Source of the DNA: Petroclostridium xylanilyticum
GTDB lineage: Bacteria; Bacillota; Clostridia; SK-Y3
Assembly (NCBI RefSeq): GCF_002252565.1
Contig: NZ_NPML01000027.1
Location: forward strand, 1-64,000
Reading direction: 5' to 3'
DNA: 64,000 nt
In this document: positions 1,023-24,350 of the stretch, piece by piece
Layout of the letters: each line of letters starts with the position of its first letter
Position numbering within the stretch: position 1 is the stretch's first letter
Program-made: the position numbers and the translations under genes
The notes under the pieces: generated by a model
Databases searched by the model: none
The model's input: the letters and a program-made list of their open reading frames with translations, nothing else
What the model was told of the DNA's origin: nothing

Positions 1023-1053
1023 TTGACTTGGAGCTAACTTCAAGTGTTATGAT
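1023..1053 (+). promoter_or_regulatory. MerR-type promoter with 19-bp spacer
   Basis: TTGACT (1023-1028) and TATGAT (1048-1053) are separated by 19 bp, the over-long spacing typical of promoters remodelled by MerR proteins. The spacer carries an imperfect dyad, ACTTGGAGCTAACTTCAAGT (1026-1045), as expected for the operator. It lies 25 bp before the merR-like start, which suggests autoregulation of the whole cluster. Confidence 0.7.
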
Positions 1054-1078
1054 ATCGGATGTCAGGAGGTGAAACTGT

Positions 1079-2436
<1,358 letters not shown>

Positions 2437-8375: not shown

Positions 8376-8394
8376 AGCCGCATATTTGGCGGCT
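8376..8394 (+). terminator. hairpin at the relaxase deletion point
   Basis: AGCCGC (8376-8381) pairs perfectly with GCGGCT (8389-8394) across a 7-nt loop. It resembles an intergenic terminator whose T-tract has been replaced by the truncated relaxase sequence, so the deletion breakpoint lies just after it. Confidence 0.4.
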
Positions 8395-9381
8395 GTGTGC
8401 CCTTTTCGTGCAGGGGTATGTGAGAATAAAAATATAGAGGAATTGATTGCCCGCCTTGCTGAAAAGCTTAAATATACTTCCGGCAAGAAGCAATACGGTT
8501 ATCTGAAGGCTCCCCTCAAGGCACTCGTTAATCAGATTGTCGATGAGCTTGCAAAGGATGAAAGAGTAACAGAGCTTTACAGCAGCTGGTACGAAATGCG
8601 TAATGAAGTTTTAAGCACCTATGTTGACAAGCTGCCGCCGCCTCTTCCGCTTTCACAGCAGAAAGAATTCAAGAGCATTAAAAACATGGTGATTGCCGAA
8701 GCGTTAAATATCGGCAGTCACCATTTCACTTTTGAGCCGGACGAGGAACAGAATATATCAATAGAAGATGATGGTGATATTACTGCTGCCACCACATATT
8801 TTGAGAAATCTGCAAAGCTCGGAAATGTCAACGCACAGTATATGCTCGGCAGGATTTATCTTGAATCGGACAGCGAGCATGAAAATGTAGAAAAGGCATT
8901 GCAGTGGCTGGGGAAAGCTGCGGACAACGGGAATGCTCCCGCACAGTATGCAATGGCGAAGCTGTACCTTACAGGAAACCATCTAGAGAAAGATGCCGTA
9001 AAGGCTGTGGAACTGTTCACCAAATCTGCAGAACAAGGCAATCAGTATGCGCAATATGCCCTCGGCAAACTGTATCTTTTGGGGCATGATGTCAGGCAGG
9101 ATAAGGAAACAGCGGTGCATTGGCTGTCGGCAGCTGCAGCACAGGGAAATATCTATGCCAAGTTTTTATTAGAACGCATGGATTCCTTCAAAGACCCATC
9201 CATACTCCTTGCAGCAACACGATTGATGCATCACTTGGGCAATATCTTTAGAGAGGAGTATCAGAAAGCTTTTGGCAATCCTCTCATCCAGGTTGACCGC
9301 AAGCTCCGCAAAAAACTCATAGAGAAAAAACTGGCTCAAGGTCACGCATATAACGACCATGCGCCACATCAAAGCTATTAG
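8395..9381 (+). pseudogene. C-terminal half of a MobP-type relaxase with Sel1-like repeats
   Basis: The frame is open for ~330 residues but lacks a real start; a TTG at 8386 lies inside the hairpin. Residues beginning KNIEELIARLAEKLKYTSGK and LPPPLPLSQQKEFKSIKNMV match the linker after the relaxase domain of Clostridia ICE relaxases. The C-terminal part then has three or four Sel1 repeats (for example YFEKSAKLGNVNAQYMLGRI and LFTKSAEQGNQYAQYALGKL). The N-terminal nicking domain with its tyrosine and histidine triad is absent. It cannot initiate transfer but may be expressed as a protein-interaction fragment. Confidence 0.6.
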
Positions 9382-9392
9382 GAGGAATTCCC

Positions 9393-9512
9393 ATGAAGAA
9401 GAACTACCTACAGAAAAAAGAAAAGATCCCCGTCTGTTATATATTCTCAAGACTGAAGCCACCTGTGAAAAGGGTGGCTTATTTTCGCAGGTCGGGCAAG
9501 CGGAAACACTGA
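9393..9512 (+). CDS. small basic ORF after the relaxase
   Basis: ATG 9393 follows AGGAGGAATTCCC and gives 39 residues, strongly basic, beginning MKKNYLQKKEKIPVCYIFSR and ending YFRRSGKRKH. The ribosome site is excellent. It overlaps a terminator-like hairpin (9457-9485), which argues against strong translation past it. No family is recognised. Confidence 0.3.
   Translation: MKKNYLQKKEKIPVCYIFSRLKPPVKRVAYFRRSGKRKH
9457..9485 (+). terminator. hairpin before the toprim gene
   Basis: AGCCACC (9457-9463) pairs with GGTGGCT (9473-9479), followed by TATTTT. It is a plausible attenuator or terminator between relaxase and toprim genes. Confidence 0.5.
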
Positions 9513-9526
9513 CGAGGAGGATCGCT

Positions 9527-11008
9527 ATGGCAGAGTACGTACATTTTACCGATGAGCAGAAACAGCGTGCAAACTCCGTTGACCTTGTGGACTTTCTCAG
9601 ACGGCAGGGAGAGCAGCTCATACGCTCCGGCAGGGAGTGGCGGTGGAAGCGTCATGATAGTGTGACAATCCGGGGCAACCGGTGGTTCCGCCACAGCGCC
9701 AGGCAAGGTGGTCTGGCCATTGATTTTGTGCAGGAATTTTATGGCCTCTCATTCCCTGATGCAGTGATACTGCTGCTGGGCGGCGAACAGGGTGTGGAAT
9801 TTAAGCAGACCAATAAAAATGACTCCCCGCCAAAGCGAAAGGAGTTTCTTCTGCCGGAGGCTGCCGATAATATGCGCCGGGTATATGCCTACCTCTTGAA
9901 GCAGCGATATATTGACCGGGACGTGCTTACTCATTTTGCTAGAGAGAAAAAAATATATGAGGATAAGGAATATCACAATGTTGTTTTTGCAGGCTATGAT
10001 GAAAACGGTACTGCCCGGCATGCACATAAAAGAGGAACCTATTCCAACGCTGCTGGTTACCGTGGAAATGTGGAAGGCTCAGATCCAAAATACAGCTTCA
10101 ATTACATCGGTACAAGTGATACCCTTTATGTGTTCGAAGCTCCCGTCGACATGCTGTCATTTATCACCCTGCATAAAAACGGCTGGCAGCAGCACAGCTA
10201 TGTAGCACTGGATGGTGTGGCTGAACATGCCATGCTGCATGTGCTGTCAAAAAATATGCACATTAAAAATGTGGTACTGTGCCTTGACCATGATCCTGCC
10301 GGTATAGAAGCTGCTGGCCGCCTTACGGAAATATTGCTTGAGAAAGGATATGCCAGTGTTTCATGTTTGCAGCCAGCATGCAAGGATTGGAATGAGGACC
10401 TGAAAGCGCAGCATGGCATAACACCGATTCCGGCAAAACCGCATCCGAAGCTTGAAGCCTGTAAAGAACTGTGCGGAGAGATTCATTACTTGTGCGACCA
10501 TATCAAATCCGTGAAAAATCCTCATGCAATGCTGATGGAGCTCTATGAAAAAGCAATACCCCTCATGCAGTCATCTAGGTCAACCGATGGACAAAAGGCT
10601 GTCCTGATGGAACAACTGCTAAGCATGACGGTATATGCGCTGTTTGTAGTGATGGCGCAATACCGGCAACTTGAAAAACCGATGAATTTTAAGCAACTGA
10701 CCGATGAACTCTGTCGCAGCTATCATCCGCACCAGGACCGGGGAAAGCTGAAAACCAAAGCAGAGGATATCCAGCAGGATGTCAATGCCATTAATGCTCA
10801 GCTCAAAACATCTGGAATCCGTACCCTTGAGGATAAGCAAAAATTAATCGCGTCGTATATGAGTCTTGCACTAAACTGCGTCAAGGTTCAAATTTTTATA
10901 TGTCTTGAAGAGCAGGAACAGAGAATAGAAGCTCTGCAAAAGCAGAATGAAGAGAGAGTCGATTATATGCAGGCTGTTTGCGAAGAATTTTTGCAGCCTG
11001 GTATTTAG
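9527..11008 (+). CDS. toprim-domain protein (DUF3991/primase-like)
   Basis: This encodes 493 residues from ATG 9527 after GAGGAGG. The N-terminal region resembles the DUF3991/CHC2-like fold (DLVDFLRRQGEQLIRSGREW, then RQGGLAIDFVQEFYG). A Toprim domain follows, with a glutamate in LYVFEAPVDMLSF and the D-x-D motif in VVLCLDHDPAGIEAAG. The C-terminal ~150 residues are helical. Such proteins are common in Firmicutes ICEs beside the relaxase and coupling protein and are thought to prime or process transferred strands. It appears intact, in contrast to its neighbours upstream. Confidence 0.8.
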   Translation: MAEYVHFTDEQKQRANSVDLVDFLRRQGEQLIRSGREWRWKRHDSVTIRGNRWFRHSARQGGLAIDFVQEFYGLSFPDAVILLLGGEQGVEFKQTNKNDSPPKRKEFLLPEAADNMRRVYAYLLKQRYIDRDVLTHFAREKKIYEDKEYHNVVFAGYDENGTARHAHKRGTYSNAAGYRGNVEGSDPKYSFNYIGTSDTLYVFEAPVDMLSFITLHKNGWQQHSYVALDGVAEHAMLHVLSKNMHIKNVVLCLDHDPAGIEAAGRLTEILLEKGYASVSCLQPACKDWNEDLKAQHGITPIPAKPHPKLEACKELCGEIHYLCDHIKSVKNPHAMLMELYEKAIPLMQSSRSTDGQKAVLMEQLLSMTVYALFVVMAQYRQLEKPMNFKQLTDELCRSYHPHQDRGKLKTKAEDIQQDVNAINAQLKTSGIRTLEDKQKLIASYMSLALNCVKVQIFICLEEQEQRIEALQKQNEERVDYMQAVCEEFLQPGI

Positions 11009-11032
11009 CAATATTATAACTGCAGATTTGAA

Positions 11033-11074
11033 GAAAGCCATGTGCGAATGAAAAATAATTGGTGCATGGCTTTC
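11033..11074 (+). terminator. hairpin between toprim and coupling-protein genes
   Basis: GAAAGCCATG (11033-11042) and CATGGCTTTC (11065-11074) are exact complements, followed by TTAATTT. The short T-run makes it a weak terminator or an RNA-stabilising hairpin. Confidence 0.5.
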
Positions 11075-11100
11075 TTAATTTGGAAGGAAGGAGGAAACCA

Positions 11101-12939
11101 ATGCAAGCATCACAGGTGGTTACTTTAATTATAGCTGCTGCAACTATGTTTGGAGTCATCGGTTTTATCGTTCTCCTGGCTCATTACTATACCTTGAATG
11201 GTATCAAGGCCAGGACGGTAGGTGACGGCCAGCATGGTACGGCAAGGTTTGCAACGAAGAATGAAATAAAGAAGACCTATGCCCATGTACCCTATGAGCC
11301 GGAACGGTGGCGCAAGGGCATCAACCTGCCTAAGGTGCAGGGTCTGGTTGTGGGATGCAAAACAGCTCCAGGCTCGGTCACCGCTCTTGTAGACCAGGGG
11401 GATGTGCATGCATTGATGATCGGTGCGGCTGGGGTCGGCAAGACCGCAAATTTCCTTTATCCTAATCTGGAATATGCTTGTGCTTCCGGGATGAGCTTTA
11501 TTACCACCGACACCAAGGGCGACCTTTACAGGAATTACGGATGCATCGCCAAGGATTACTATGGCTACAATGTGTCCGTCATTGACCTGAGAAACCCCAC
11601 CCGCAGCGACGGCAACAATATGCTGCACCTTGTGAACAAATATATGGATGAATACCTTGCCAATCCTGATAATCTCCCAGCAAAAGCCAGGGCGGAGAAA
11701 TATGCAAAGATTATTGCCAAAACCATTGTCAACTCCGGAGGACTGGATGCAGGCTCCTACGGCCAGAATGCATTTTTTTACGATGCAGCCGAGGGCTTGC
11801 TGACTGCCGTCATTTTATTGGTAGCGGAATACTGTCCAAACGAGAAACGCCATATCATATCGGTCTTTAAGCTCATACAGGATTTGCTGGCTCCCTCCGG
11901 CGTAAAGGGAAAAAACCAGTTCCAGCTGCTCATTGAAAAGCTCCCGTCAGAGCATAAGGCAAGATGGTTTGCAGGAGCGGCATTAAACACTGCAGAGCAG
12001 GCGATGCAAAGCGTCCTGTCGACAGCCCTTTCCCGGTTGAATGCATTCCTGGACTCAGAACTGGAGCAGATACTGTGCTTTGACACTGCCATTGATGCAG
12101 AGCGTTTTTGCAAAAGAAAGTCTGCCATCTTCCTTGTCATGCCGGAAGAAGACAACACAAAATATTTTCTAATCTCCCTTATTGTTCAGCAGCTGTACCG
12201 GGAAATACTGTCGGTGGCCGATGAGCAGGGCGGCAGGCTTCAAAACCGTGTCATGATGTACCTGGATGAGATTGGCACCATACCTAAAATTGAATGTGCA
12301 GAGATGATGTTTTCTGCTTCCCGTTCCCGCCGTGTTTCCATCGTGGCCATCATACAGAGCTTTGCGCAGCTTGAAAAGAACTACGGCAAGGAAGGAGCCG
12401 CCATCATCATCGACAACTGCCAGGACACCATCTTCGGAGGCTTTGCCCCAAACTCGGAATCAGCCGAGATACTCTCCAGAAGCCTTGGCAATAAGACAGT
12501 TTTATCAGGTTCGGTCACCCGGGGGAAGCATGATCCGTCCCAATCCCTGCAAATGATCCAGCGTCCCCTAATGACTCCTGACGAATTGAAGACCCTGCCT
12601 AAAGGCAGCTTCATTGTCGCAAAGACCGGCGCCTGTCCTATGAAAACCAGTTTAAAGCTGTTCATTGAATGGGGCATCCGGTTTGAAAAGGTGTATGAGC
12701 TGCAGGAAAAATCCGCCCGCAAGGTTGCCTATGCTGACAAAAAAGAGCTTGAAGAGGAAATTATAAAACGGCACATTGCATATGAAGATATAGAAGAACT
12801 GGAACCATACTCCACATCAGCTCAAGGCGGCATATCCCTTGCACCTGCTGAAGAGATTCAGGTGAAAGCATTGAAGTCCAGGCTGCAAGCAAAGATAAAA
12901 GCACAGCAGCAAATGGAGACGCCGCTGCGTACAGATTAG
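11101..12939 (+). CDS. VirD4/TraG-family conjugative coupling ATPase
   Basis: This encodes 612 residues after GGAAGGAGGAAACCA. One N-terminal membrane helix (VTLIIAAATMFGVIGFIVLL) anchors it. The ATPase domain has Walker A GAAGVGKTANF and Walker B VMMYLDEIGTIP. The segments RSRRVSIVAIIQSFAQLEKN and CQDTIFGGFAPNSESAEIL are typical of TraG/VirD4 proteins. It would bring the relaxase-DNA complex to the secretion channel. It appears full length although both the relaxase and the channel are broken. It is followed 10 bases later by the winged-helix gene, so the two share an operon. Confidence 0.93.
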   Translation: MQASQVVTLIIAAATMFGVIGFIVLLAHYYTLNGIKARTVGDGQHGTARFATKNEIKKTYAHVPYEPERWRKGINLPKVQGLVVGCKTAPGSVTALVDQGDVHALMIGAAGVGKTANFLYPNLEYACASGMSFITTDTKGDLYRNYGCIAKDYYGYNVSVIDLRNPTRSDGNNMLHLVNKYMDEYLANPDNLPAKARAEKYAKIIAKTIVNSGGLDAGSYGQNAFFYDAAEGLLTAVILLVAEYCPNEKRHIISVFKLIQDLLAPSGVKGKNQFQLLIEKLPSEHKARWFAGAALNTAEQAMQSVLSTALSRLNAFLDSELEQILCFDTAIDAERFCKRKSAIFLVMPEEDNTKYFLISLIVQQLYREILSVADEQGGRLQNRVMMYLDEIGTIPKIECAEMMFSASRSRRVSIVAIIQSFAQLEKNYGKEGAAIIIDNCQDTIFGGFAPNSESAEILSRSLGNKTVLSGSVTRGKHDPSQSLQMIQRPLMTPDELKTLPKGSFIVAKTGACPMKTSLKLFIEWGIRFEKVYELQEKSARKVAYADKKELEEEIIKRHIAYEDIEELEPYSTSAQGGISLAPAEEIQVKALKSRLQAKIKAQQQMETPLRTD

Positions 12940-12949
12940 GAGGTGCCTG

Positions 12950-13216
12950 ATGGGTTATTTTGAATCGCTTTATGCATCAGAGCTTCCCCATAGGGCTGTA
13001 ACTGTCTACATGTACCTTCGTGACAGGGCGGACAGGGACGGCAAATGCTATCCGGCGATCGGTACCATCGCCGAAGAACTGAAGTTGTCACGGAGCACCG
13101 TAAAAAGAGCCATCGCAGATCTTGAAAAGAGCGGTTATCTTCGCAAGGAGCAGCGGTGGCGTGAGAACGGGGGCAAGAGCAGCAACATGTATTTTTTAAA
13201 ATCAGGGATGGGGTAA
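12950..13216 (+). CDS. winged-helix DNA-binding protein (ICE accessory)
   Basis: This encodes 88 residues with TAGGAGGTG before ATG 12950. A classic helix-turn-helix is seen in AIGTIAEELKLSRSTVKRAI followed by the wing SGYLRKEQRWRENGG, and the N-terminus is HRAVTVYMYLRDRADRDGKC. Proteins like this follow the coupling protein in many Clostridia ICEs and resemble replication-initiator or transcription-factor wings. The frame stops early at TAA 13214-13216, but a +2 shifted frame stays open for 51 more codons with the composition of a normal C-terminal tail (see next entry), so the protein may be truncated. Confidence 0.72.
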   Translation: MGYFESLYASELPHRAVTVYMYLRDRADRDGKCYPAIGTIAEELKLSRSTVKRAIADLEKSGYLRKEQRWRENGGKSSNMYFLKSGMG

Positions 13217-13381: not shown

Positions 13382-13411
13382 AATATTTTAGTATAGACAT
13401 ACTAAAATATT
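13382..13411 (+). promoter_or_regulatory. perfect 13-bp palindrome before the type I RM operon
   Basis: AATATTTTAGTAT (13382-13394) and ATACTAAAATATT (13399-13411) are exact inverted arms with a 4-bp centre, 59 bases before the first RM gene. It overlaps the AT-rich region where the promoter must lie (TATGAT at 13412-13417 is a possible -10). It is most simply an operator for control of the restriction system, and no dedicated C-protein gene is seen. Confidence 0.6.
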
Positions 13412-13469
13412 TATGATACACTACTATCAATGGAAGAATTTACACATTTGGATAGAAAGGAGGAAAATC

Positions 13470-15053
13470 GTGAACCCATCAATAGATATTTTTATTAATT
13501 CGTTTGCTATGCGCGGTATTACCTCACGAGAGCAATTATTGAACGAAATGTTACGCGTCAAACTTACAGCGCGAGCCGTGAAATCACAGAAAAAATCTCT
13601 GCAAGATGGAGAGCAGCTTTTCGAATTAATGAAGCATTCTACCGAAAGTACAATCCTTGGATACTTTCCGGGCGACAGGGATTTCTTTTCTGCTATTTAT
13701 AAGGTTGCCCAAGAAATTGATCTTATTGAGTATACACTTAAACTATACCAAAATGACCGCTTCGGACAGATATTCTCTCCAGCTTATTTGACGGAATATG
13801 TCTGTAGCCTGATAGATGATGCAAAAGCCCAGTCGATACTTATTGCCGAAGCAGAAAAAAGCCTATCAGGTCTTAAAGGCTTTGTGGAGAAGCATCAGTC
13901 AAGCAATATAACCTTTACCACATCCAATGTACTTATGTTTATGCTGCTTAAGCTTGGATTTGAAGAATATAAGAACGTCAGTATTCTTAATCAGTCGATA
14001 TACCAGGAGCTGCTTATTGACGCACGTTTTGACTTTATCTATTCACTGCCTGATTTTGGCGGCAAGATTGAAGCCGTTAACCATAAATTCATGTCCTCAA
14101 GACCGGATATTGTAGCAACGCAGAATTTACTTGGGCACTTATCTGACAGGGGCACGCTGGTGACTGTGCTCCCTGCTAAGATTACATTTGCAAGCGGTTC
14201 TGAAGCAAAGCTGCGTGAGCATATCATGACCCACTATCAATTGGAGGGTATTTACAGTCTTCCCGAAGGTACTTTCAAGCCGTATACTGCCATAAAAACC
14301 TATATGCTTAAAATAGGTGCTGTAAAAAAGGAAAATGTGAGCGTGGGATATTTGGGTTATGATAATGGTCTTTATGTCGATAAAGTAAAGGTAGTGGGGA
14401 GCAAAGATTTTGCCGCTCATGAGGATTGGCGAATTGAACTCATACTTGAGGATGATGATGAGAATATCAGAAAGTATAAGACATCAACTCTTGAAAGAGT
14501 TAAACTTCATGAAGTTGCGGAGGTTTTCAGGGGAAAATCAATCCTCAAAAAAGATGTTAAGCCTGGGAAAATCATGGTACTGAATATTTCAAACATTACC
14601 GATACCGGCATTGATTATTCCAATATGGACAGTATTGATGAAGAAGAACGAAAAATTAAGAGATATGAACTGATAGATGGAGACATAGTCTTATCTTGTA
14701 GGGGGTCGGCAATTAAAACGGGTGTATACCGTAAACAAAAAAGTATCGTTATCGCCTCGGCTAATGTTATCGTTATTAGACCCAATAATAGGATTTTAAG
14801 CGATTATCTTAAGATATTCTTTGAGAGTCCTGTCGGAATAGCACTTATTAAAAGCTTTCAACGGGGGACAACCATTGTCAATATAAATCACACTGACATT
14901 ATGGAAATGGAAATACCACTCTTAAGTATAGAAGAGCAGAAAGAGCTGGTAACTCATTACGAAGCTGAAAGCGCTCTTTATCGAGAAACTATCAGCAAGG
15001 CTGTGGAACGCTTTGCTGCTGAAAAAGAAAAAATCTATGAGAGATTGCTCTAA
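13470..15053 (+). CDS. degenerate N6-methyltransferase fused to an HsdS-like target-recognition domain
   Basis: This encodes 527 residues with a GTG start at 13470 after AAAGGAGGA. The N-terminal ~330 residues follow the layout of N6 DNA methylases: a FSPAYL motif (102-107) like the F(T/S)P of HsdM, and a motif-IV position reading DARFDFIYSLPDFGG (about 185-198). The catalytic NPP(F/Y) is replaced by SLPDF. No DPxCGxG SAM motif is seen. The C-terminal ~190 residues (from LERVKLHEVAEVFRGKSI) form one type I target-recognition domain ending in a coiled coil. It is therefore probably not a methyltransferase but an accessory specificity or regulatory subunit. It leads the operon, 17 bases before hsdM. 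Confidence 0.65.
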   Translation: MNPSIDIFINSFAMRGITSREQLLNEMLRVKLTARAVKSQKKSLQDGEQLFELMKHSTESTILGYFPGDRDFFSAIYKVAQEIDLIEYTLKLYQNDRFGQIFSPAYLTEYVCSLIDDAKAQSILIAEAEKSLSGLKGFVEKHQSSNITFTTSNVLMFMLLKLGFEEYKNVSILNQSIYQELLIDARFDFIYSLPDFGGKIEAVNHKFMSSRPDIVATQNLLGHLSDRGTLVTVLPAKITFASGSEAKLREHIMTHYQLEGIYSLPEGTFKPYTAIKTYMLKIGAVKKENVSVGYLGYDNGLYVDKVKVVGSKDFAAHEDWRIELILEDDDENIRKYKTSTLERVKLHEVAEVFRGKSILKKDVKPGKIMVLNISNITDTGIDYSNMDSIDEEERKIKRYELIDGDIVLSCRGSAIKTGVYRKQKSIVIASANVIVIRPNNRILSDYLKIFFESPVGIALIKSFQRGTTIVNINHTDIMEMEIPLLSIEEQKELVTHYEAESALYRETISKAVERFAAEKEKIYERLL

Positions 15054-15070
15054 GATGAGGAGGATGAATA

Positions 15071-16573
15071 ATGGCAACGGTAAATTTGGGGTTTGAAAAT
15101 AATCTATGGGAAATGGCGGATAAACTGCGTGGTAACATTGAGGCTTCGGAATACAAGCATGTAGTACTGGGACTAATTTTTCTTAAATACATCTCCGATG
15201 CTTTTGAGGAGAGATATAACGAGCTGGTTGCAGAGGGCGAAGGATTTGAGGAAGATATAGATGCTTATACCGAAGAGAATGTTTTTTTCGTACCGAAGGA
15301 AGCCCGTTGGGAGTACATAAAATCCAATGCCAAGCAGCCTACTATCGGACAGATTATCGACGAAGCAATGATAGCTATTGAAAAGGAAAACGCCTCCCTT
15401 AAAGGGGTGTTGCCTAAAAACTATGCCCGCCCGGAAATTGATAAAACAAAGCTTGGCGAGCTTATCGACTTGTTTTCCTTTAAGGTTGGTGATAAGGAGG
15501 CGAGAGCCAAAGATGTGCTCGGCAGGGTGTATGAATACTTCCTTGGGAAGTTCGGTTCGTCGGAAGGCGAATTTTACACCCCGCCATCCATTGTAAAATT
15601 GCTTGTTGAAATGATTGAGCCGTATAAAGGCAGGGTTTATGACCCGTGCTGCGGGTCCGGCGGCATGTTTGTGCAGAGCCAGAGATTTGTTGAAGAACAC
15701 AGCGGAAGAAAGGACGACATCCATATCTTTGGACAGGAATACACTGCTACCACCTGGCGGCTTTGCAAAATGAACCTTGCGATCAGGGGTATTGACGGAA
15801 ACCTTGGCGAGCGGGATGCGGATACCTTTTCCAATGATCTCCACAAGATGCTGAAGGCGGACTATATACTTGCTAATCCACCCTTTAACATCAAGGACTG
15901 GGGAGCTAACAGGCTTGCCGATGATGTCCGCTGGAAGTATGGTATGCCCCCTGCGGGAAACGCCAACTATGCCTGGATACAGCATATTATTTCCAAGCTT
16001 TCGCCAAATGGTGTAGCGGGCTTTGTCATGGCAAACGGCGCTATGTCTACCAATACAACCAGTGAAGCCGAGATAAGGAAGAATATTATCGAAGACAAAC
16101 TTGTGGACTGCATCATCACTCTGCCGCCCAACCTCTTCTATAATGTAACCATTCCCGCCTGCCTGTGGTTCTTGACAAAGAATAAGAAATCGGCAGGCCG
16201 GGACCGCAGCAACGAAATCCTCTTTATTGATGCCCGCAAGATGGGCACGATGGTTGACCGCAAGCACAGGGAACTTGACTATGAGACGGAGATAAAATAT
16301 ATTGCCGATACCTACCACAAGTGGAAAAAGGGCGAAGGTTACGAGGACATCAAAGGATTCTGCAAGTCTGCCACACTGGATGAAGTGCGTTCCCATGAGT
16401 ATATTCTCACTCCCGGCAGGTATGTTGGCATTGAAGAACGGGTTGATGACGGGGAGCCTTTTGATGAAAAAATGGCCAGGCTTACCGGTGAACTTGCCGA
16501 AATGTTTGCCAAGCGTAAATCTCTGGAGGAGGAAATCCGTAAAAGACTGGGGGCGATTGGGTATGAGTTTTGA
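15071..16573 (+). CDS. hsdM: type I restriction-modification DNA methyltransferase subunit
   Basis: This encodes 500 residues after GATGAGGAGGATGAATA. HsdM N-terminal helical domain: [20 protein letters not shown]. Catalytic domain: [20 protein letters not shown] motif [10 protein letters not shown] (191-200) and catalytic NPPF at 269-272 ([15 protein letters not shown]). All essential residues are present. It transfers a methyl group to adenine N6 and forms the M2S1 core with HsdS and the R2M2S1 nuclease with HsdR. Its end overlaps the next gene by 11 bases. Confidence 0.95.
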
Positions 16574-17591
16574 AAATAATTCGGAAATATTAATTTACCA
16601 AACTGAAGATGGGAAAACCAAAATCGAGGTGAAAATGGAAAATGAGACAGTGTGGCTTTCCTTGAATCAGATGGCAGAGTTATTTCAACGTGATAAGTCT
16701 GTTATTTCACGCCATATCAAAAATGTATTTAGCGAAGGAGAACTTAAAGAAAAAGAAGTTGTTGCATATTTTGCAACAACTGCAGCGGACGGAAAAACCT
16801 ATAATGTAGAGTACTTTAACTTGGATGTCATAATTTCTGTTGGCTATCGTGTTAAATCCCACAGGGGCACTCAGTTCAGAATCTGGGCAACCCAAAGACT
16901 TAAGGAATACATAATCAAAGGCTTTACTATGAATGATGACCTGCTGAAAAAAGCAGGCGGCGGTAATTATTTTGAGGAATTGTTGGAGCGTATCCGGGAT
17001 ATTCGCTCAAGTGAAAAAGTCTTTTATCGTAAGATTTTAGATATTTATGCCACCAGTATTGATTATTCACCGGATGCGGCCATTTCACAGCAGTTTTTTC
17101 AAACGGTCCAGAACAAAATGCACTGGGCGGCCCATGGGCATACTGCGGCAGAAATAGTTTATCTGAGAGCTGATAGTACAAAGCCTTTTATGGGAATGAC
17201 CAACTTTACCGGTTCTAAGCCTACCAGGTCAGAATCCCAGATTGCCAAAAACTATCTTACAGAGGATGAACTGGCTGTACTAAACCGCATCGTCAATGCT
17301 TATATCGAATTTGCCGAGCTTCAGGCAATCCGCAGAAAACCCATGTACATGGCCGACTGGATAGAAAAATTGGACGATTTCCTTAAAATGAGCGACAGTG
17401 AGATCCTTACGCACGCAGGCAAAATCAGCCACCAACAGGCTACTCAAAAGGCAATAGAAGAGTATGAGAAGTATAGGGAACGGACCAAAAATGAGCTTTC
17501 AGAGGTGGAAAAGCACTTTTTAGAAAGTATAGACAAGACCGCAAAGAAGCTGAAAGGGAAAAAGGACAGCACCGGAGGCGATCGGGTATGA
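16563..17591 (+). CDS. RhuM-family protein embedded in the RM operon
   Basis: This encodes 342 residues from ATG 16563, overlapping hsdM. The N-terminal wing-like domain reads [20 protein letters not shown] and [13 protein letters not shown], and the RhuM core has [20 protein letters not shown] and [20 protein letters not shown]. RhuM proteins are often found inside type I RM operons and near defence genes; their biochemical role is unknown. Some carry a Fic-like or Bro-type fold, and the first 100 residues here look like a DNA-binding Bro/KilA-like module. The 4-nt overlap with hsdS indicates co-translation. Confidence 0.85.
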
Positions 17592-18817
17592 GTTTTAGTG
17601 GGTGGAGAAAAACAAAAGTAGATGAAGTTGCGGAGGCTATTTTTAGTGGTGGTACGCCTAATACAAAGATAGAAGAATATTGGAATGGTGAATATAATTG
17701 GTTGTCTTCTGGTGAAACGCGGAATGCCTATATAAAACAAACAGAAAAAACAATTACTTCAGAAGGGGTAAATAATTCTTCAACAAGATTAGCTTTAAAA
17801 GATGATGTTGTTATTGCTTCAGCTGGTCAAGGGTACACTCGGGGACAAGTATCGTATTGTATGATTGATACATATATAAATCAATCAATAATTGCAATCA
17901 GGGCAAAGAAAGATGAACTACTTCCCAAATATTTATTTTTTAATTTGAGGAATAGGTATGAAGAATTAAGACAGATATCAGATGGAAATAGCATTAGGGG
18001 TAGCATTACTACTAAGCATATAAAAGCATTGGATATATTTATTCCTCCACTCCCCGAACAAAAGGCAATTGCCGCCACACTGTCTGTCCTTGACGACCTT
18101 ATCGAGCTTAACAACCAAATCAACAAAACCCTTGAGGAAATGGCGCAGGCAATCTTCAAGTCCTGGTTTGTAGATTTTGAGCCGTTTAAGGACGGGGAGT
18201 TTGAGGAAAGCGAACTGGGGTTAATACCAAAGGGGTGGAGAGTAGCTGCATTAGATGAAATAGCCACTTACCTAAACGGGCTTGCTATGCAAAAATATCC
18301 TCCAAGCAAAAATGAAAGAGGACTTCCTGTGTTGAAAATAAAGGAGCTTCGTCAGGGTTTTACTGATGGGAATAGCGATATTTGCTCTGAAAGTATCGAC
18401 AATTCTTATATAATTAATGACGGAGATATTATTTTTTCCTGGTCTGGAAGTCTTTTGGTTGATATTTGGTGCGGTGGTCGATGTGGCTTAAACCAGCACC
18501 TGTTTAAGGTCACATCCGCATCTTATAATAAATGGTTTTACTATATGTGGACGCGTTATCATTTAGAAAGATTTATTGCGATTGCCAAGGACAAGGCAAC
18601 AACCATGGGACATATACAGAGAAAACATCTTTCGGAGGCAAAAGTTTTAATACCGGAACCAAACACTCTCGCTTTTATGGATTCTGTTATGCAACCGATA
18701 ATTGACTTAGTTATTGCCAATAAAGTTGAGAATAAAACCTTATCTACTATTCGCGACACCCTCCTCCCAAAATTGATGAGCGGTGAGATAAGAGTACCGG
18801 TGGGGGAGGTTGTGTGA
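17588..18817 (+). CDS. hsdS: type I restriction specificity subunit
   Basis: This encodes 409 residues with two target-recognition domains separated by conserved helices. TRD1 starts at WRKTKVDEVAEAIFSGGTPN and TRD2 at GWRVAALDEIATYLNGLAMQ. The central conserved region reads LPEQKAIAATLSVLDDLIEL then NNQINKTLEEMAQAIFKSWF. The C-terminal helix ends RDTLLPKLMSGEIRV. It determines the bipartite recognition site. It is intact and of normal length. The codon use of TRD1 is more AT-rich than the rest, as expected for exchanged recognition domains. Confidence 0.93.
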   Translation: MSFSGWRKTKVDEVAEAIFSGGTPNTKIEEYWNGEYNWLSSGETRNAYIKQTEKTITSEGVNNSSTRLALKDDVVIASAGQGYTRGQVSYCMIDTYINQSIIAIRAKKDELLPKYLFFNLRNRYEELRQISDGNSIRGSITTKHIKALDIFIPPLPEQKAIAATLSVLDDLIELNNQINKTLEEMAQAIFKSWFVDFEPFKDGEFEESELGLIPKGWRVAALDEIATYLNGLAMQKYPPSKNERGLPVLKIKELRQGFTDGNSDICSESIDNSYIINDGDIIFSWSGSLLVDIWCGGRCGLNQHLFKVTSASYNKWFYYMWTRYHLERFIAIAKDKATTMGHIQRKHLSEAKVLIPEPNTLAFMDSVMQPIIDLVIANKVENKTLSTIRDTLLPKLMSGEIRVPVGEVV

Positions 18818-18818
18818 G

Positions 18819-19037
18819 ATGGATTGGAATTTAGTATTCAACGGTGCAATGGCGGTTGTTGCTGTAGGTGGGGGTATTGGAAGTATTATTGGAGCAATTT
18901 CATCAAATAAAAGTAAGAAGCTTGCTGAGCAAGCAGCGAAAAACGCTGATGATTACCACAAAACTGTAACAGAATATGTTAAGCAATTACTTGAAAAGCA
19001 GAAAATACAACAAAATGTTGAAAAAAAGAAACATTAA
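18819..19037 (+). CDS. small single-pass membrane protein in the RM operon
   Basis: This encodes 72 residues from ATG 18819, 9 bases after GGGGGAGG that lies within the hsdS end. One hydrophobic glycine-rich helix (AVVAVGGGIGSIIGAI) follows a short N-terminus, then comes a charged coiled coil (KKLAEQAAKNADDYHK onward) with a very basic end. The small size, membrane helix and place between hsdS and hsdR are unusual for a restriction system. It has a holin-like or sensor-like appearance, but no family is recognised. Confidence 0.6.
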   Translation: MDWNLVFNGAMAVVAVGGGIGSIIGAISSNKSKKLAEQAAKNADDYHKTVTEYVKQLLEKQKIQQNVEKKKH

Positions 19038-19045
19038 AACAGGAA

Positions 19046-19231
19046 ATGATTAAGCAGATATCTCTATCAGGGTTTGCAAAAACTCAGGAAATAGCGGATA
19101 AAGTCAGAGTTTCAAAAGAGGAAGCATTTGAATTATTACGAGAGCTGTTACTGGTTGATGGCAAGATTTCCTGCGGAGGAAGAGCCACAGAAGATAATAT
19201 GGACAATGTTATATGGCTTAAGAAGAAATAG
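19046..19231 (+). CDS. small winged-helix-like protein in the RM operon
   Basis: This encodes 61 residues starting [20 protein letters not shown], then [20 protein letters not shown], which looks like a compact winged helix-turn-helix with a CGG turn. It lies a few bases after the membrane-protein gene and 13 bases before hsdR, in the same direction. It may regulate the operon or contact HsdR, and there is no direct evidence for either. Confidence 0.5.
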
Positions 19232-19244
19232 AGGGAGGTGCCTT

Positions 19245-22200
19245 ATGTCAAATCATAATGTATATGAAGATGAGTTGGAGCAGGCGGCTTTGGAATGGTT
19301 TGAGGAACTCACCTACGAAATTGCCTTTGCTCCTAACTTATCCCCCGGTGGGGATTATCCTGAACGTTCTGATTATTCCGATGTAATCCTGGAGGAACGT
19401 CTGAAGGACGCATTAAAGCGCATAAACCCGGATTTGCCCCAGGAGGCTCTTGACGACGCCCTGCATCAAATCCTTGTGCCGCTTAATCCTGCACTAATAG
19501 ACAACAATCATCTTTTTCAGAAGATGGTCACCGATGGGGTGAATGCTACCTTTAGGGCCAGTGACGGCAGAATAGTCAGCAAGCAGGTCAAGGTTTTTGA
19601 CTTCGAGAAAGTAGAGAATAATGATTTTTTGGCTGTTAACCAATTTACTGTGATTGAGAATAGGATTGAAAAGCGTCCTGATGTGGTAGTATTTGTCAAC
19701 GGCATTCCCCTTGTTGTCATCGAGCTTAAGAACCTGGCCAATGAGGATGTAGAAATATCCGACGCCTTTAATCAGATCCAAAACTATATTAGCACGATCC
19801 CGTCCCTCTTTACTTACAATTCCTTTGTAGTTATATCTGACGGGGTAAATGCACGGGCAGGCACAATAACTGCTGATGAAGACAGGTTCATGATGTGGCG
19901 GACTATTGACGGAGACGAGATTGCACCTGTAGGCCGCCCGCAGCTTGAAGTCTTAATCAAAGGAATGTTTGAAAAGGAACGTCTGCTTGATCTTATTAAG
20001 AACTTTATATTGTTCCAGACTGACGGAAAAGATACTTACAAAATTCTGGCAGGTTACCATCAATATCATGCTGTCAATAAAGCAGTTGAAAGCACTATAA
20101 GAGCTGCAATTACTGAGGGAGACCGCAAAGCCGGCGTTGTTTGGCATACCCAGGGCAGCGGCAAAAGTCTTTCTATGGTTTTCTATGTGGGCAAGCTTGT
20201 TCTGGCGAAAGAACTTAATAACCCGACAATTGTAGTGATTACCGACCGTAACGACCTTGACGACCAGCTATTTTCCACATTTGCAAAATCAAAAGACTTA
20301 TTACGCCAGGAACCGGTGCAGGCTCAGGACAGAGCAGATCTTCGCAGACTCCTTGCGAGAGAATCGGGAGGTATTATCTTTACGACCATACATAAATTCG
20401 CTCCTGATGAAAAAGGTGATAGTGTGCCTGTTCTTACAGACCGGGAAAACGTAATTGTTATTGCTGATGAAGCCCATCGAAGTCAGTACGGATTCGGAGC
20501 GGAAATTGTCAAGGGTGATACTGAAGCTGAGGTCAAATACGGCTATGCCAAATATATGCGTGATGCCCTTCCTAAAGCATCTTATATCGGCTTTACCGGA
20601 ACGCCAATATCCCTTGCGGACAAGGATACCAGAGCTGTATTTGGCGACTATATCGATATTTATGATATGACCAGGGCAGTAGAGGACGGAACGACAGTAC
20701 GTATTTTCTATGAAAGCCGGATTGCGAAGCTGGAGCTGCCGGATGAACTCAAGCCCGTTATTGACAGCGAATACGAAGAAATCACTGAATACCAGGAGTA
20801 TACCCAAAAAGAAAAGCTCAAGTCCAAATGGTCAAGGCTTGAGGCTATTGTCGGCGCCGAGCAGCGTGTTAAAGCGATTGCCAAAGACATTGTGGAGCAT
20901 TTTGAAAAGCGTCTCGCAGCCCAGGAGACAGAAGTGGGCAAAGGTATGATCGTAACCATGTCTCGGCGGATTGCGGTTGACCTTTATAAAGCGATTGTAG
21001 AACTGCGCCCGGAATGGCACTCTGACGATGTGGAAAAAGGCGTTATTAAGGTGGTCATGACCGGAAGTTCATCAGACCCTAAAGAATGGCAGCCTTTCAT
21101 CGGTACAAAGGCTACCCGAGACAGAATCGCCAAGCGCATGAAGGATAACAAGGACGAGCTGAAGTTAGTCATTGTGCGTGACATGTGGCTGACCGGTTTT
21201 GATGTTCCGAGCATGCACACCATGTATATTGACAAACCTATGCAAGGACATAACCTTATGCAGGCAATCGCCCGCGTCAACCGGGTATTTAGGGAAAAGC
21301 AGGGCGGCTTGATCGTAGATTATATCGGCATTGCCGAAAACCTCAAAAATGCTCTTAATGATTATACCGAGAGCGACAGGGAAAAGACAGGTGTTGATAC
21401 TGAACTGGCAGCAGCAGTGCTTCTTGAGAAGTATGAATTGATTAAGGAATTGCTCCATGGTCATGATTATCAGAAATTCTTTATCGGCTCTGCTTCCGAC
21501 AGGATGGCCGCCATTGTTGAAACCATCGACTACATTATCGGGCTACGAGAAGAACGCAAAAACGAATATCTTAAGCTGGTCAGCGAACTTTCAAGGGCCT
21601 ACTCGCTTTGTGCTACTACCGATATTGCTGAAAAATTAAATCTTGAGGTAGGTTTCCATAAAGCAGTTAAATCCGGGATTATTAAGCTCATTCCCGAAAA
21701 CTCTAAAAAGAAAACTGCTGCGGAGATTGAAGCCCAGCTTAACCAGCTTATATCCAAATCTATTGCCAGCAATGAGGTTATCGATGTTTTGGATGCTGTT
21801 GGGCTTAATAAGCCTAATATTGCTATACTGTCCGACGAGTTCCTGGAGGAAGTGCGCAACATGAAACAGCGCAACCTTGCCGTCGAGCTTCTCAACAGAT
21901 TGCTTAAAGGCAAGATAAAGACTTTTTCCAGGCGAAATCTCGTTCAGTCCAGGAAGTTCTCGGAGCTTTTAGAGAATGCCATCAGGAAGTACCAGAACCG
22001 CACCATTGAAACCACACAGATTATTTTGGAACTTATACAACTTGCCAAAGAAATCAATGAAGCTCATAAACGTGGAGAAAATACCGGTCTTACTGAAGAT
22101 GAGCTGGCGTTTTACGATGCGCTTGCCGAAAATGAGTCTGCCAAAGAAATTATGGGCGACGATATCCTCAAGCAGATAGCAAGGGATTTGACTGAGGCAA

Positions 22201-22442
22201 TACGTAAAAATCTCAGCATTGATTGGTCTATTCGTGCCAGCGTGCAAGCCAAAATGAAGATGGTTATCAAGAGGCTGCTCAAGCACTACGGTTATCCGCC
22301 GGACAAAACCCCTAAGGCTGTAGAAATAGTAATGGAGCAGGCCAAGCTCATGTGCCAAAACGAGAGTGCAGGGGTTAGGTATCAGTACCAGCTTGTTAAA
22401 GAAGAATTACCGAAAGTAGCGGAGGAAAGGGAGAATATATGA
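19245..22442 (+). CDS. hsdR: type I restriction endonuclease/translocase subunit
   Basis: This encodes 1065 residues from ATG 19245 with GAGGGAGGTG at 19231-19240. The N-terminal nuclease shows Asp146 in [10 protein letters not shown] and Glu160-x-Lys162 in VVIELKN (PD-(D/E)xK). The SF2 translocase has Walker [17 protein letters not shown] box [12 protein letters not shown], motif III FTGTPIS and motif [15 protein letters not shown]. The C-terminal ~250 residues are the helical HsdM-docking region. Length and motifs are normal, so the system should be able to restrict incoming DNA. The stop overlaps the next frame (ATGA). Confidence 0.96.
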
Positions 22443-22790: not shown

Positions 22791-22838
22791 AACACCCCGT
22801 ACATCTTTAAAACAAATGATGTTCGGGGTGTTATTTTT
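22791..22838. terminator. bidirectional terminator between the RM operon and immA
   Basis: AACACCCCGTACATC (22791-22805) pairs with GATGTTCGGGGTGTT (22818-22832) with one mismatch. T-runs follow on the plus strand (ATTTTTTC) and, via AAACAAAACAAAA, on the minus strand. It separates convergent transcripts. Confidence 0.85.
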
Positions 22839-23340
22839 TCAGGAAATCTCCTGTCGAATTTAATGGAGCTTCAAGCCTGTAGCCTCTGTTTTTCAATATC
22901 TGAAATTTAAAATCCATTAATTCCGGTGGTACATAAAGTTCCCTTGCGGCTCTAAAAAAATTCATTTCCGCATCATTTATCAGTTTAATAACCTCATCAT
23001 CAGGCAAGAGGACTTTAGCGGCGAAAATGTTTGCTTCCCTTTCCGGCTTTGAAGACATATCATAGCTGATAAGCTCCTGGGCCTGGGGATTCATTATGGC
23101 CAAGTATCTGTGGAAGCGGTCATGGCCAATTTCGTGAGCACATACTAATCGTTTGGCAGGACTGTCCAATTTATTGTTAATGCAGATATATCGGCTTCGC
23201 CTTGTGTATATGTAAATCCCTTTAAGCTTGCCGAGCGGCCTGTAGAGAACATTAATATTAAGACAATCGGCAATTTCAAAGGGGTTTCTGGTTTTATGCT
23301 TTTGAATCAACCTCTCGACTTTTCGTAAAATAAATTCCAT
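22831..23340 (-). CDS. ImmA/IrrE-family metallopeptidase
   Basis: This encodes 169 residues, with the start at 23340 (minus strand) chosen because GGGGTG precedes it. The zinc site is AHEIGHDRFH (HExxH) with the third ligand in the following DMSSKPEREANIFAAKVLLP segment. In ICEBs1 and many prophages ImmA cleaves the XRE-family immunity repressor to induce the element. The gene lies 17 bases downstream of the repressor-like frame on the minus strand, so the two are co-transcribed. It overlaps the bidirectional terminator at its end. Confidence 0.87.
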   Translation of the reverse strand: MEFILRKVERLIQKHKTRNPFEIADCLNINVLYRPLGKLKGIYIYTRRSRYICINNKLDSPAKRLVCAHEIGHDRFHRYLAIMNPQAQELISYDMSSKPEREANIFAAKVLLPDDEVIKLINDAEMNFFRAARELYVPPELMDFKFQILKNRGYRLEAPLNSTGDFLKK

Positions 23341-23356
23341 ACTTTTCACCCCGCAG

Positions 23357-23805
23357 CTAATCAGTTGGTGTATTTTTGCTGCCTTTATTTTTACGGACAC
23401 CATACTTTTTGGCTTTTTTCTTTGAGTCAAAGTATATTTCGGTTAATACCTCAAAAAGCGCATCTTTATCTTCATCTGATAATTCTCCGCCGGCAAATAA
23501 ACATTTTGTAGTTTCAATGAATTTTTTTGCTTCGCTTTTCCCCTCAACTTATCTTCTGCTTTAGCTTTCTCAAGAAATATTTCTTCCTTAGTCATTGTAA
23601 TGCTTTCACTGTCGTCTGTCAGGAAATCTGAAGATACGTTAAAGAAATCGGCGATTTTATCAATTAGCTCTGCCTCCCGTGGAAATCGCTCACCGTTTTC
23701 ATAATAGACCAAAGCCCGTCTGGTAATCCCGAGCTGCTCTGCAAAGTCTTTCTGAGAAATGCCTGCCCTTTTACGTAATAATCTAATTTTTTCGCCAAAC
23801 TGCAT
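23357..23805 (-). pseudogene. XRE-family repressor with a poly-A frameshift (ImmR-like)
   Basis: Start 23805 (minus). The N-terminal helix-turn-helix is intact: MQFGEKIRLLRKRAGISQKD and FAEQLGITRRALVYYENGER. After KAKAEDKLRGKAK the frame runs into QKNSLKLQN and stops at 23443. Across a run of seven A residues (plus-strand T 23522-23528) a one-base shift restores FIETTKCLFAGGELSDEDKD then ALFEVLTEIYFDSKKKAKKY, ending TAG at 23357. The DNA-binding domain can still be made, but the C-terminal part, probably needed for ImmA control, is out of frame. Phase variation or a sequencing slip is also possible. Confidence 0.7.
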
Positions 23806-23824
23806 TTGATAAAACACCTCATCC

Positions 23825-23846
23825 TTTACAAGCAGTACATTGTAAA
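23825..23846. promoter_or_regulatory. 7-bp inverted repeat, probable XRE operator
   Basis: TTTACAA (23825-23831) and TTGTAAA (23840-23846) are separated by 8 nt, 20 bases upstream of the repressor start and before the divergent sigma-like gene. This is the expected place for an autoregulatory operator between divergent promoters. Confidence 0.5.
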
Positions 23847-23945
23847 ATACAGGTATTCGGAAAAGGAAATTATCGAAATCCGGTATCCTTGATTTCCTCT
23901 GTTTTGCTAAGGCCCGCAAACAAAGCAAAACGGAGGGAAGGAAAG

Positions 23946-24350
23946 ATGAAAGAATACAAAATAAGAGTAAAAAGTGAAATTGTTACTGTAAGCAAGGAAA
24001 TATATACTGCCTATTACAAAATGAGAAGACGTGAAAGGTACATAGAGGAAATCAGCATAAAGAACAATCTTTCTTATGACCAATTAGTCGAGCTGGACTA
24101 TCCTATCGAGCAGAAAATGTGTGATCCGCAACTTCTTGTAGAAGACGTTATTATTGAAAAAATCATGCTTGAGAAATTAATGCTGGCGCTTGAAGAATTG
24201 ACAGAGCATGAGCGGTTAATAATTAATGAACTGTTCTTTAATGGCAAAAGCGAAAGAGAGCTGGCAGATATAATGATGCTGCCAAGAACAACTTTGCAGT
24301 CTCGCAAAAACAGCGTTATCAGCAAACTTAAAAAAATTATGAAAAAATAA
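23946..24350 (+). CDS. sigma-70 region 4-like regulator
   Basis: This encodes 134 residues after GGAGGGAAGGAAAG. It starts KEYKIRVKSEIVTVSKEIYT. The C-terminal half is a region-4 helix-turn-helix: ELTEHERLIINELFFNGKSE then RELADIMMLPRTTLQSRKNS. Region 2 is absent, so it is not a complete sigma factor. Such proteins lie divergent from XRE/ImmA pairs in Clostridia ICEs and are thought to activate ICE genes. It is intact, and a hairpin terminator follows 15 bases after the stop. Confidence 0.8.
   Translation: MKEYKIRVKSEIVTVSKEIYTAYYKMRRRERYIEEISIKNNLSYDQLVELDYPIEQKMCDPQLLVEDVIIEKIMLEKLMLALEELTEHERLIINELFFNGKSERELADIMMLPRTTLQSRKNSVISKLKKIMKK

Follow-up and report, generated by a model that had tools for sequence, protein, structure and literature searches.

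A catalytically dead methyltransferase fused to one recognition domain, a probable autoregulator at the head of type I restriction-modification operons

The first gene of a type I restriction-modification (RM) operon in Petroclostridium xylanilyticum encodes a protein, here called the leader, which, judged from its sequence, is a catalytically dead methyltransferase keeping one DNA-reading domain. We consider it likely that this fusion of a dead methyltransferase (M) domain and a target-recognition domain (TRD) acts as a homodimer which binds its own promoter and autoregulates the RM operon, probably by repression. Comparison of related loci shows loss of the catalytic motifs, purifying selection on the TRD, a palindrome in the promoter, association of this palindrome with the leader rather than with hsdM or hsdR, and half-sites that differ with the TRD. 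The operon lies within a window of 64,000 nucleotides (contig NZ_NPML01000027.1), and its features are listed in Table 1.

Table 1. Features of the leader-led RM operon and its promoter, in window coordinates
Feature	Position	Strand	Description
Putative operator, TTTAGTAT-AGAC-ATACTAAA	13387..13406		Perfect 16-letter palindrome; 12-bp arms when extended, ATATTTTAGTAT...ATACTAAAATAT
Likely operon promoter, TAGACA - 17 nt - TACACT	13394..13422	+	-35 box inside the palindrome
Leader gene	13470..15053	+	527-aa pseudo-methyltransferase-TRD fusion; GTG start; AAAGGAGG just upstream
Leader residues 1-300	13470..14369	+	Helical N-terminal part and degenerate N6-MTase fold
Leader residues 340-495	14487..14954	+	Single TRD, more strongly conserved than the rest of the protein; homologue of the Esub1 TRD of known structure (PDB 8vsq/8vsr)
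Leader residues 496-527	14955..15050	+	Portion of the 40-residue C-terminal helix (487-526)
hsdM	15071..16573	+	Intact (Pfam, alignment)
rhuM-like gene (Virulence_RhuM)	16572..17591	+	Accessory, inconstant among relatives (Pfam)
hsdS	17588..18817	+	Two TRDs; differs between relatives (Pfam)
hsdR	19128..22442	+	ORF start at 19128, TTG; homology to relatives from about residue 33, near 19224

The leader protein and its operon

The leader gene lies in an ORF (13413..15053) which includes the GTG at 13470, 6 nt past AAAGGAGG. The coordinates and HsdM-like character given to it in the initial annotation were right: the AlphaFold model (pLDDT 87.6, pTM 0.82) resembles HsdM chains over residues 1-327 with Z scores of 22-26, indicating that an HsdM-like fold is present, in a fold search confined to the re-ranking of Foldseek matches. 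Residues 331-527 match 8vsq (Z 25) and form the TRD, and single-chain M-TRD enzymes such as M.TaqI and CamA cover both parts of the leader (Z about 21). In Pfam searches the N6_Mtase match of the leader is weak (33.8 bits, residues 87-286), against 359 bits for the downstream hsdM, and the Methylase_S match is clear (48.2 bits, residues 341-494), in agreement with the single HsdS-type TRD that had been recognised at the end of the protein. HsdS carries two TRDs and two conserved helices per chain; the leader has one Methylase_S match and one long C-terminal helix, spanning residues 487-526 in the AlphaFold model, which may be a dimer or spacer helix comparable to the conserved helices of HsdS. 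A Pfam search of the whole protein at E values up to 1 gave no HTH domain, the matches being limited to Methylase_S, N6_Mtase and a weak one to Pepsin-I3.

The loss of both catalytic motifs, also claimed at the outset, holds in alignment to the neighbouring HsdM. Motif IV, [DNS]PP[FYW] in HsdM and ANPPF in this neighbour, is SLPDF in the leader (residues 192-196), and the SAM-binding motif I (F/DxGxG) has been removed in the clade of the window by a 9-residue deletion, after which comes ILIAEAEK. An intact but displaced catalytic motif was not seen in this alignment.

The order of genes after the leader is hsdM, rhuM, hsdS and hsdR. The complete HsdM and two-domain HsdS that had been placed behind the leader are indeed there, with the correction that rhuM separates them. 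Between hsdS and the region of hsdR homology is a gap of about 400 bp (18818-19223) which contains a small hydrophobic ORF and has no blastn match in five close relatives. The RM operon is apparently cargo of a conjugative element (8386-13216 and 22831-24350), with genes for a MobL-like/Sel1 protein, a DUF3991-Toprim protein, a T4SS coupling protein and an HTH_36 protein upstream, and for an IrrE/ImmA-like M78 peptidase with an HTH_3 regulator and a sigma-region-4-like gene downstream.

Conservation of the leader among RM operons

Relatives of the leader, with identities of 19-98%, are mostly first in type I RM loci, and leader-led type I operons come from several families within the phylum and from plasmids of Lactococcus, Salimicrobium and Lactobacillus. 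The gene is kept as a leader in related RM operons, where leader followed by hsdM is the usual order although accessory genes change. Accessory genes exchanged in or beside these operons encode RhuM, SEFIR/TIR, PIN, DUF3800 and Abi proteins (window 16572-17591; L017:5287-6765; L009:11049-11981; L025:13564-15060; L026:15680-16483).

The [DNS]PP[FYW] motif is absent from all 24 aligned leaders, in which motif IV is replaced by SLPDF, SLPTF, ASPAF, CLPTF, TLPHF, SDLPF, MSIPF, MDFPF, SVPNF, SDIPR, MDAPF and other variants. A 'long' group of leaders, of about 600-650 aa, has kept a motif I-like loop, and a 'short' group, to which the leader of the window belongs, has lost it. On a Levilactobacillus plasmid (L074:5402-8929) two separate proteins take the leader place of a type I operon. 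One, of 184 aa, resembles a half-HsdS and gave no significant match in Pfam, and the other is a methyltransferase of 457 aa whose DPPY is intact; not every leader is therefore dead, and this pair is possibly a living counterpart of the fused dead leader.

The ORFs of the leaders are undamaged and conserved, and many residues remain invariant among copies as little as 35% identical. Across eight divergent leaders, mean pairwise identity is 61% in the TRD versus 42-43% in the helical and M parts, which shows purifying selection on the leader TRD. In five near relatives, HsdM (89-99%), HsdR (94-98%) and leader (83-98%) are close to those of the window, whereas HsdS is just 33-62% identical; the leader TRD does not show the diversification between related systems that is characteristic of HsdS. 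A TRD which stays fixed while the HsdS of the same operons changes must read a fixed target. These data bear on the earlier suggestion that the leader supplies an alternative specificity half, joining HsdM (or HsdS) through its TRD and so adding a further methylation/restriction motif or forming a three-part motif. Its TRD and C-terminal helix are of the HsdS type, and PacII M1M2S, found in the fold search, is an M-S assembly with two different M chains. However, conservation of the leader TRD beside a variable HsdS, the dead M domain of all 24 aligned relatives and a palindrome in the leader promoter that occurs without mismatch only once in the genome make such a subunit unlikely.

A palindrome in the leader promoter

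The -35 box of the leader operon is TTGACA in most relatives and lies inside the palindrome in most copies; in L081 and L082 the palindrome is upstream of, and separate from, the clearest -35 box. Allowing up to one mismatch, TTTAGTAT-N4-ATACTAAA is found 45-105 nt before the start of 21 leader copies (the window, L004-L009, L017-L020, L022, L023, L037, L078-L082, L087 and L153). This set covers all intact short-type leaders with visible upstream DNA, the exceptions being L083, which has the right half-site only, and two TTTGGTAT variants. Leaders L085, L086 and L089 sit behind other genes and were left out of the promoter comparison. No convincing palindrome was found at L073 and L088, two distant 'long' relatives, and those of several other long relatives are weak; the weaker palindromes of L026, L073, L084, L088 and L091 were left out of the argument. 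Across 11 representatives whose proteins share about half of their residues at most (34% being the lowest identity between any two proteins of a slightly larger class), none of the 16 arm positions varies (2.0 bits each). The mean in the flanks, taken as the 30 nt ahead of the palindrome and the 50 nt behind it, is 0.42-0.44 bits.

A palindrome is also missing upstream of L021 (8000-12122), despite a leader 43% identical to that of the window; in this decayed operon hsdM and hsdR are frameshifted and the N-terminus of the leader is lost. Such decay, together with the lost catalytic motifs, is what would be expected if the leader were a relic, a decaying methyltransferase retained by hitch-hiking. 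That reading is scarcely credible in the face of intact ORFs with residues invariant among divergent leaders, a conserved promoter site and purifying selection that is already visible.

The 3.86-Mb genome of the organism contains a single exact copy of the palindrome, the putative operator itself. Matches with at most two mismatches are not in excess of a reversed control pattern (8 vs 13), and a palindrome regulon in this genome was rejected on these numbers. Exact palindromes are present in 8 of 391 genomes of the class; seven are directly upstream of a leader and the eighth is within an unrelated membrane-protein ORF. The reversed control was found in 7 class genomes, so a bare exact match is weak and it is the location upstream of a leader that counts. 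Perfect 8/8 inverted arms were observed in 17 of 25 leader-led upstream regions versus 2 of 26 controls, with a Mann-Whitney p of 3.7e-6 which is indicative only, since the loci share ancestry and the group test overstates significance. Shuffling locus by locus gave p values of 0.005-0.9; AT-rich promoters yield short palindromes by chance.

The palindrome was absent upstream of 26 related hsdM genes (about 51-74% identical) that have no leader. A palindrome-only scan of IMG/VR viral contigs gave 56 with an exact site, a yield which, as estimated from the control rate in the class genomes, does not go beyond chance, and phage decoy sites were rejected as an explanation. One of the 56 is a leader locus, L153, in which the palindrome is 45 nt upstream of a leader 37% identical to that of the window and 73% identical to that of L022; here HsdR is only 31% identical and a divergent hsdM/hsdS pair lies on the opposite strand. 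Both the leaderless controls and L153 argue that the palindrome travels with the leader, not with HsdM or HsdR, and a site for either of these proteins was rejected on the same grounds.

Initially it had also been proposed that the leader blocks or tunes methylation. A regulatory role stands, but the promoter palindrome indicates an effect on transcription of the operon rather than on motif methylation. A post-translational brake, in which the dead M-TRD protein competes with HsdM for HsdS/HsdR or caps the complex and the palindrome belongs to another regulator, would suit the HsdM fold and co-transcription of the leader; it is very improbable, as the palindrome accompanies the leader into different RM families, and the leader is the one gene constantly found next to it. 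Two further origins of the palindrome were rejected. Promoter constraint alone does not explain a left arm with no -35 or -10 role, nor the palindromes set apart from the -35 box in L081 and L082. An operator of the adjoining HTH_36 gene (12950-13216) is at odds with upstream genes and sequence that vary among relatives while the palindrome is constant.

Half-sites change with the recognition domain

Among relatives, other TRDs go with other palindromes. L090, with a TRD 51% identical to that of the window, has TTTGGTAT-TACA-ATACCAAA, and L024 (35% identical, on a contig that stops ahead of the TRD) has TTTGGTAT-GCGA-ATACCAAA. In L024 a SymE/MazE-like gene of 64 aa (1026-1220, minus strand) lies between palindrome and leader. 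The Lactococcus leaders (TRD 35% identical) have AACTTAGTAT-N5-ATACTAAGTT immediately ahead of the start; in one of them, L075, TTAGTAT-N5-ATACTAA is present twice, the second copy about 170 nt farther up. L092 has TATTATGTAT-N4-ATACATAATA, a palindrome with 12-bp arms centred on the -35 box. At eight TRD positions the TTTAGTAT class has an invariant residue and L090 a different one, and the preferred candidates among them for determining specificity would be R398N, R465Q and N473S (window to L090).

Proposed control of the operon

Single-TRD half-HsdS proteins of type I enzymes pair and read palindromic bipartite sites. The anatomy of the leader, with one TRD and a 40-residue C-terminal helix, likewise predicts a homodimer on a bipartite palindrome, and the promoter holds one. 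From these sequence features we infer that the leader dimerises, that it binds DNA and that it represses transcription instead of activating it. The leader would thus be a dedicated transcriptional autoregulator that arose from a catalytically dead type I-like half consisting of M domain, TRD and C-terminal helix. The C-terminal helix would join two copies, as in half-HsdS proteins, and bring their identical TRDs opposite each other to read the bipartite palindrome; the M domain would be retained to clamp DNA, its enzymatic function having been given up. The predicted target is TTTAGTAT-N4-ATACTAAA in the promoter of its own operon, with the -35 box inside; binding would block RNA polymerase, and negative feedback would keep leader-hsdM-rhuM-hsdS-hsdR at a low level. 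A point against a repressor is that the keeping of a large M domain is not accounted for by the sequence.

Repression is favoured by the overlap of palindrome and -35 box. An activator, or a dual regulator resembling C proteins, would use the same site with an opposite or concentration-dependent outcome, and is consistent with the palindromes upstream of the -35 box in L081 and L082 and with Lactococcus copies that have one site upstream and one downstream of the promoter. Because the -35 box of most members is inside the palindrome, an arrangement that favours occlusion, this outcome seems rather unlikely.

The initial annotation had also raised the idea of a separate sensor, and for an autorepressing leader such sensing might feed into the promoter switch. 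The leader dimer could, for instance, double as a phage alarm, anti-restriction proteins pulling it off the promoter and thereby raising RM expression, which we regard as a tentative and somewhat improbable extension. The alarm would depend on mimicry, by the leader, of the M-S surface of the restriction enzyme, and its triggers might be DNA mimics like Ocr and ArdA or proteins that bind TRDs, as Prx does with Esub1. SAM or SAH might modulate this switch in the 'long' relatives, where motif I is retained.

Comparison with known systems

The closest solved structure is that of Esub1, which was co-crystallised with Prx (PDB 8vsq/8vsr) and is homologous to leader residues 331-525, covering TRD and C-helix (E 9e-49, profile A1). 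The Esub1 chain has 206 aa and no M domain, in contrast to the leader, and its function is unstated in the entry. We take Esub1 to be the Streptococcus protein SpyM3_0890 and Prx to be the streptococcal phage protein paratox, and both are reportedly described under these names. With Prx taken as phage paratox, its co-crystallisation with Esub1 makes a phage-sensing role worth testing. Neither Esub1 nor 8vsq gave a match in the literature searched.

HsdM/HsdS, M.TaqI and CamA share with the leader the combination of M fold and TRD fold, and M.TaqI and CamA match both of its parts; the leader differs in that the catalytic motif and SAM loop are gone and its one TRD is fixed, not variable. By position the leader resembles RM controllers and repressors, being first in the operon with a conserved palindromic putative operator in its own promoter. 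RptR of gammaproteobacteria is a 9-kDa, all-helical dimer and first-gene autorepressor of type I RM operons, with which it is strongly associated, and reads palindromic sites, TAGCTA repeats at the -10 box (PMC12255303). The leader is like RptR in its place in the operon and in the palindromic sites of its own promoter. However, RptR has neither methyltransferase nor TRD, whereas the leader, at 527 aa with M and TRD folds and the putative operator TTTAGTAT-N4-ATACTAAA, has neither the small size (about 9 kDa), the all-helical structure nor the TAGCTA repeats. EcoRII, SsoII and Ecl18kI are methyltransferases fused to repressor domains (reviewed in PMC12707154). In these, too, a methyltransferase polypeptide regulates its own RM promoter, but the systems are type II, the methyltransferase is active and the operator is bound by a separate fused repressor domain. 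C (controller) proteins are products of small genes that head and control RM operons, and one is encoded ahead of the type I hsd locus in Mycoplasma gallisepticum (PMC12707154); they are HTH proteins without M and TRD domains, and Pfam gave no HTH in the leader. RptR, C proteins and methyltransferase-HTH repressors would thus be functional analogues, none of which has the architecture of the leader, and no report of a dead methyltransferase-TRD protein as a regulator was found in the literature searched, coverage of which was partial.

Significance

Little is known of how transcription of type I RM systems is controlled; the cases named in the literature consulted are the C protein of Mycoplasma gallisepticum and the gammaproteobacterial RptR. 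As an autoregulator of an RM operon the leader would be of a known kind with an unusual protein architecture. Reading it as a regulator offers a predicted operator together with a set of predicted specificity residues, and may link the leader to anti-restriction proteins of phages. If correct, it would explain a family now annotated merely as 'N-6 DNA methylase', and would warn methylome studies against assigning a motif to leader genes. The use of one half of a restriction enzyme as a promoter switch would then represent a new route to a transcription factor.
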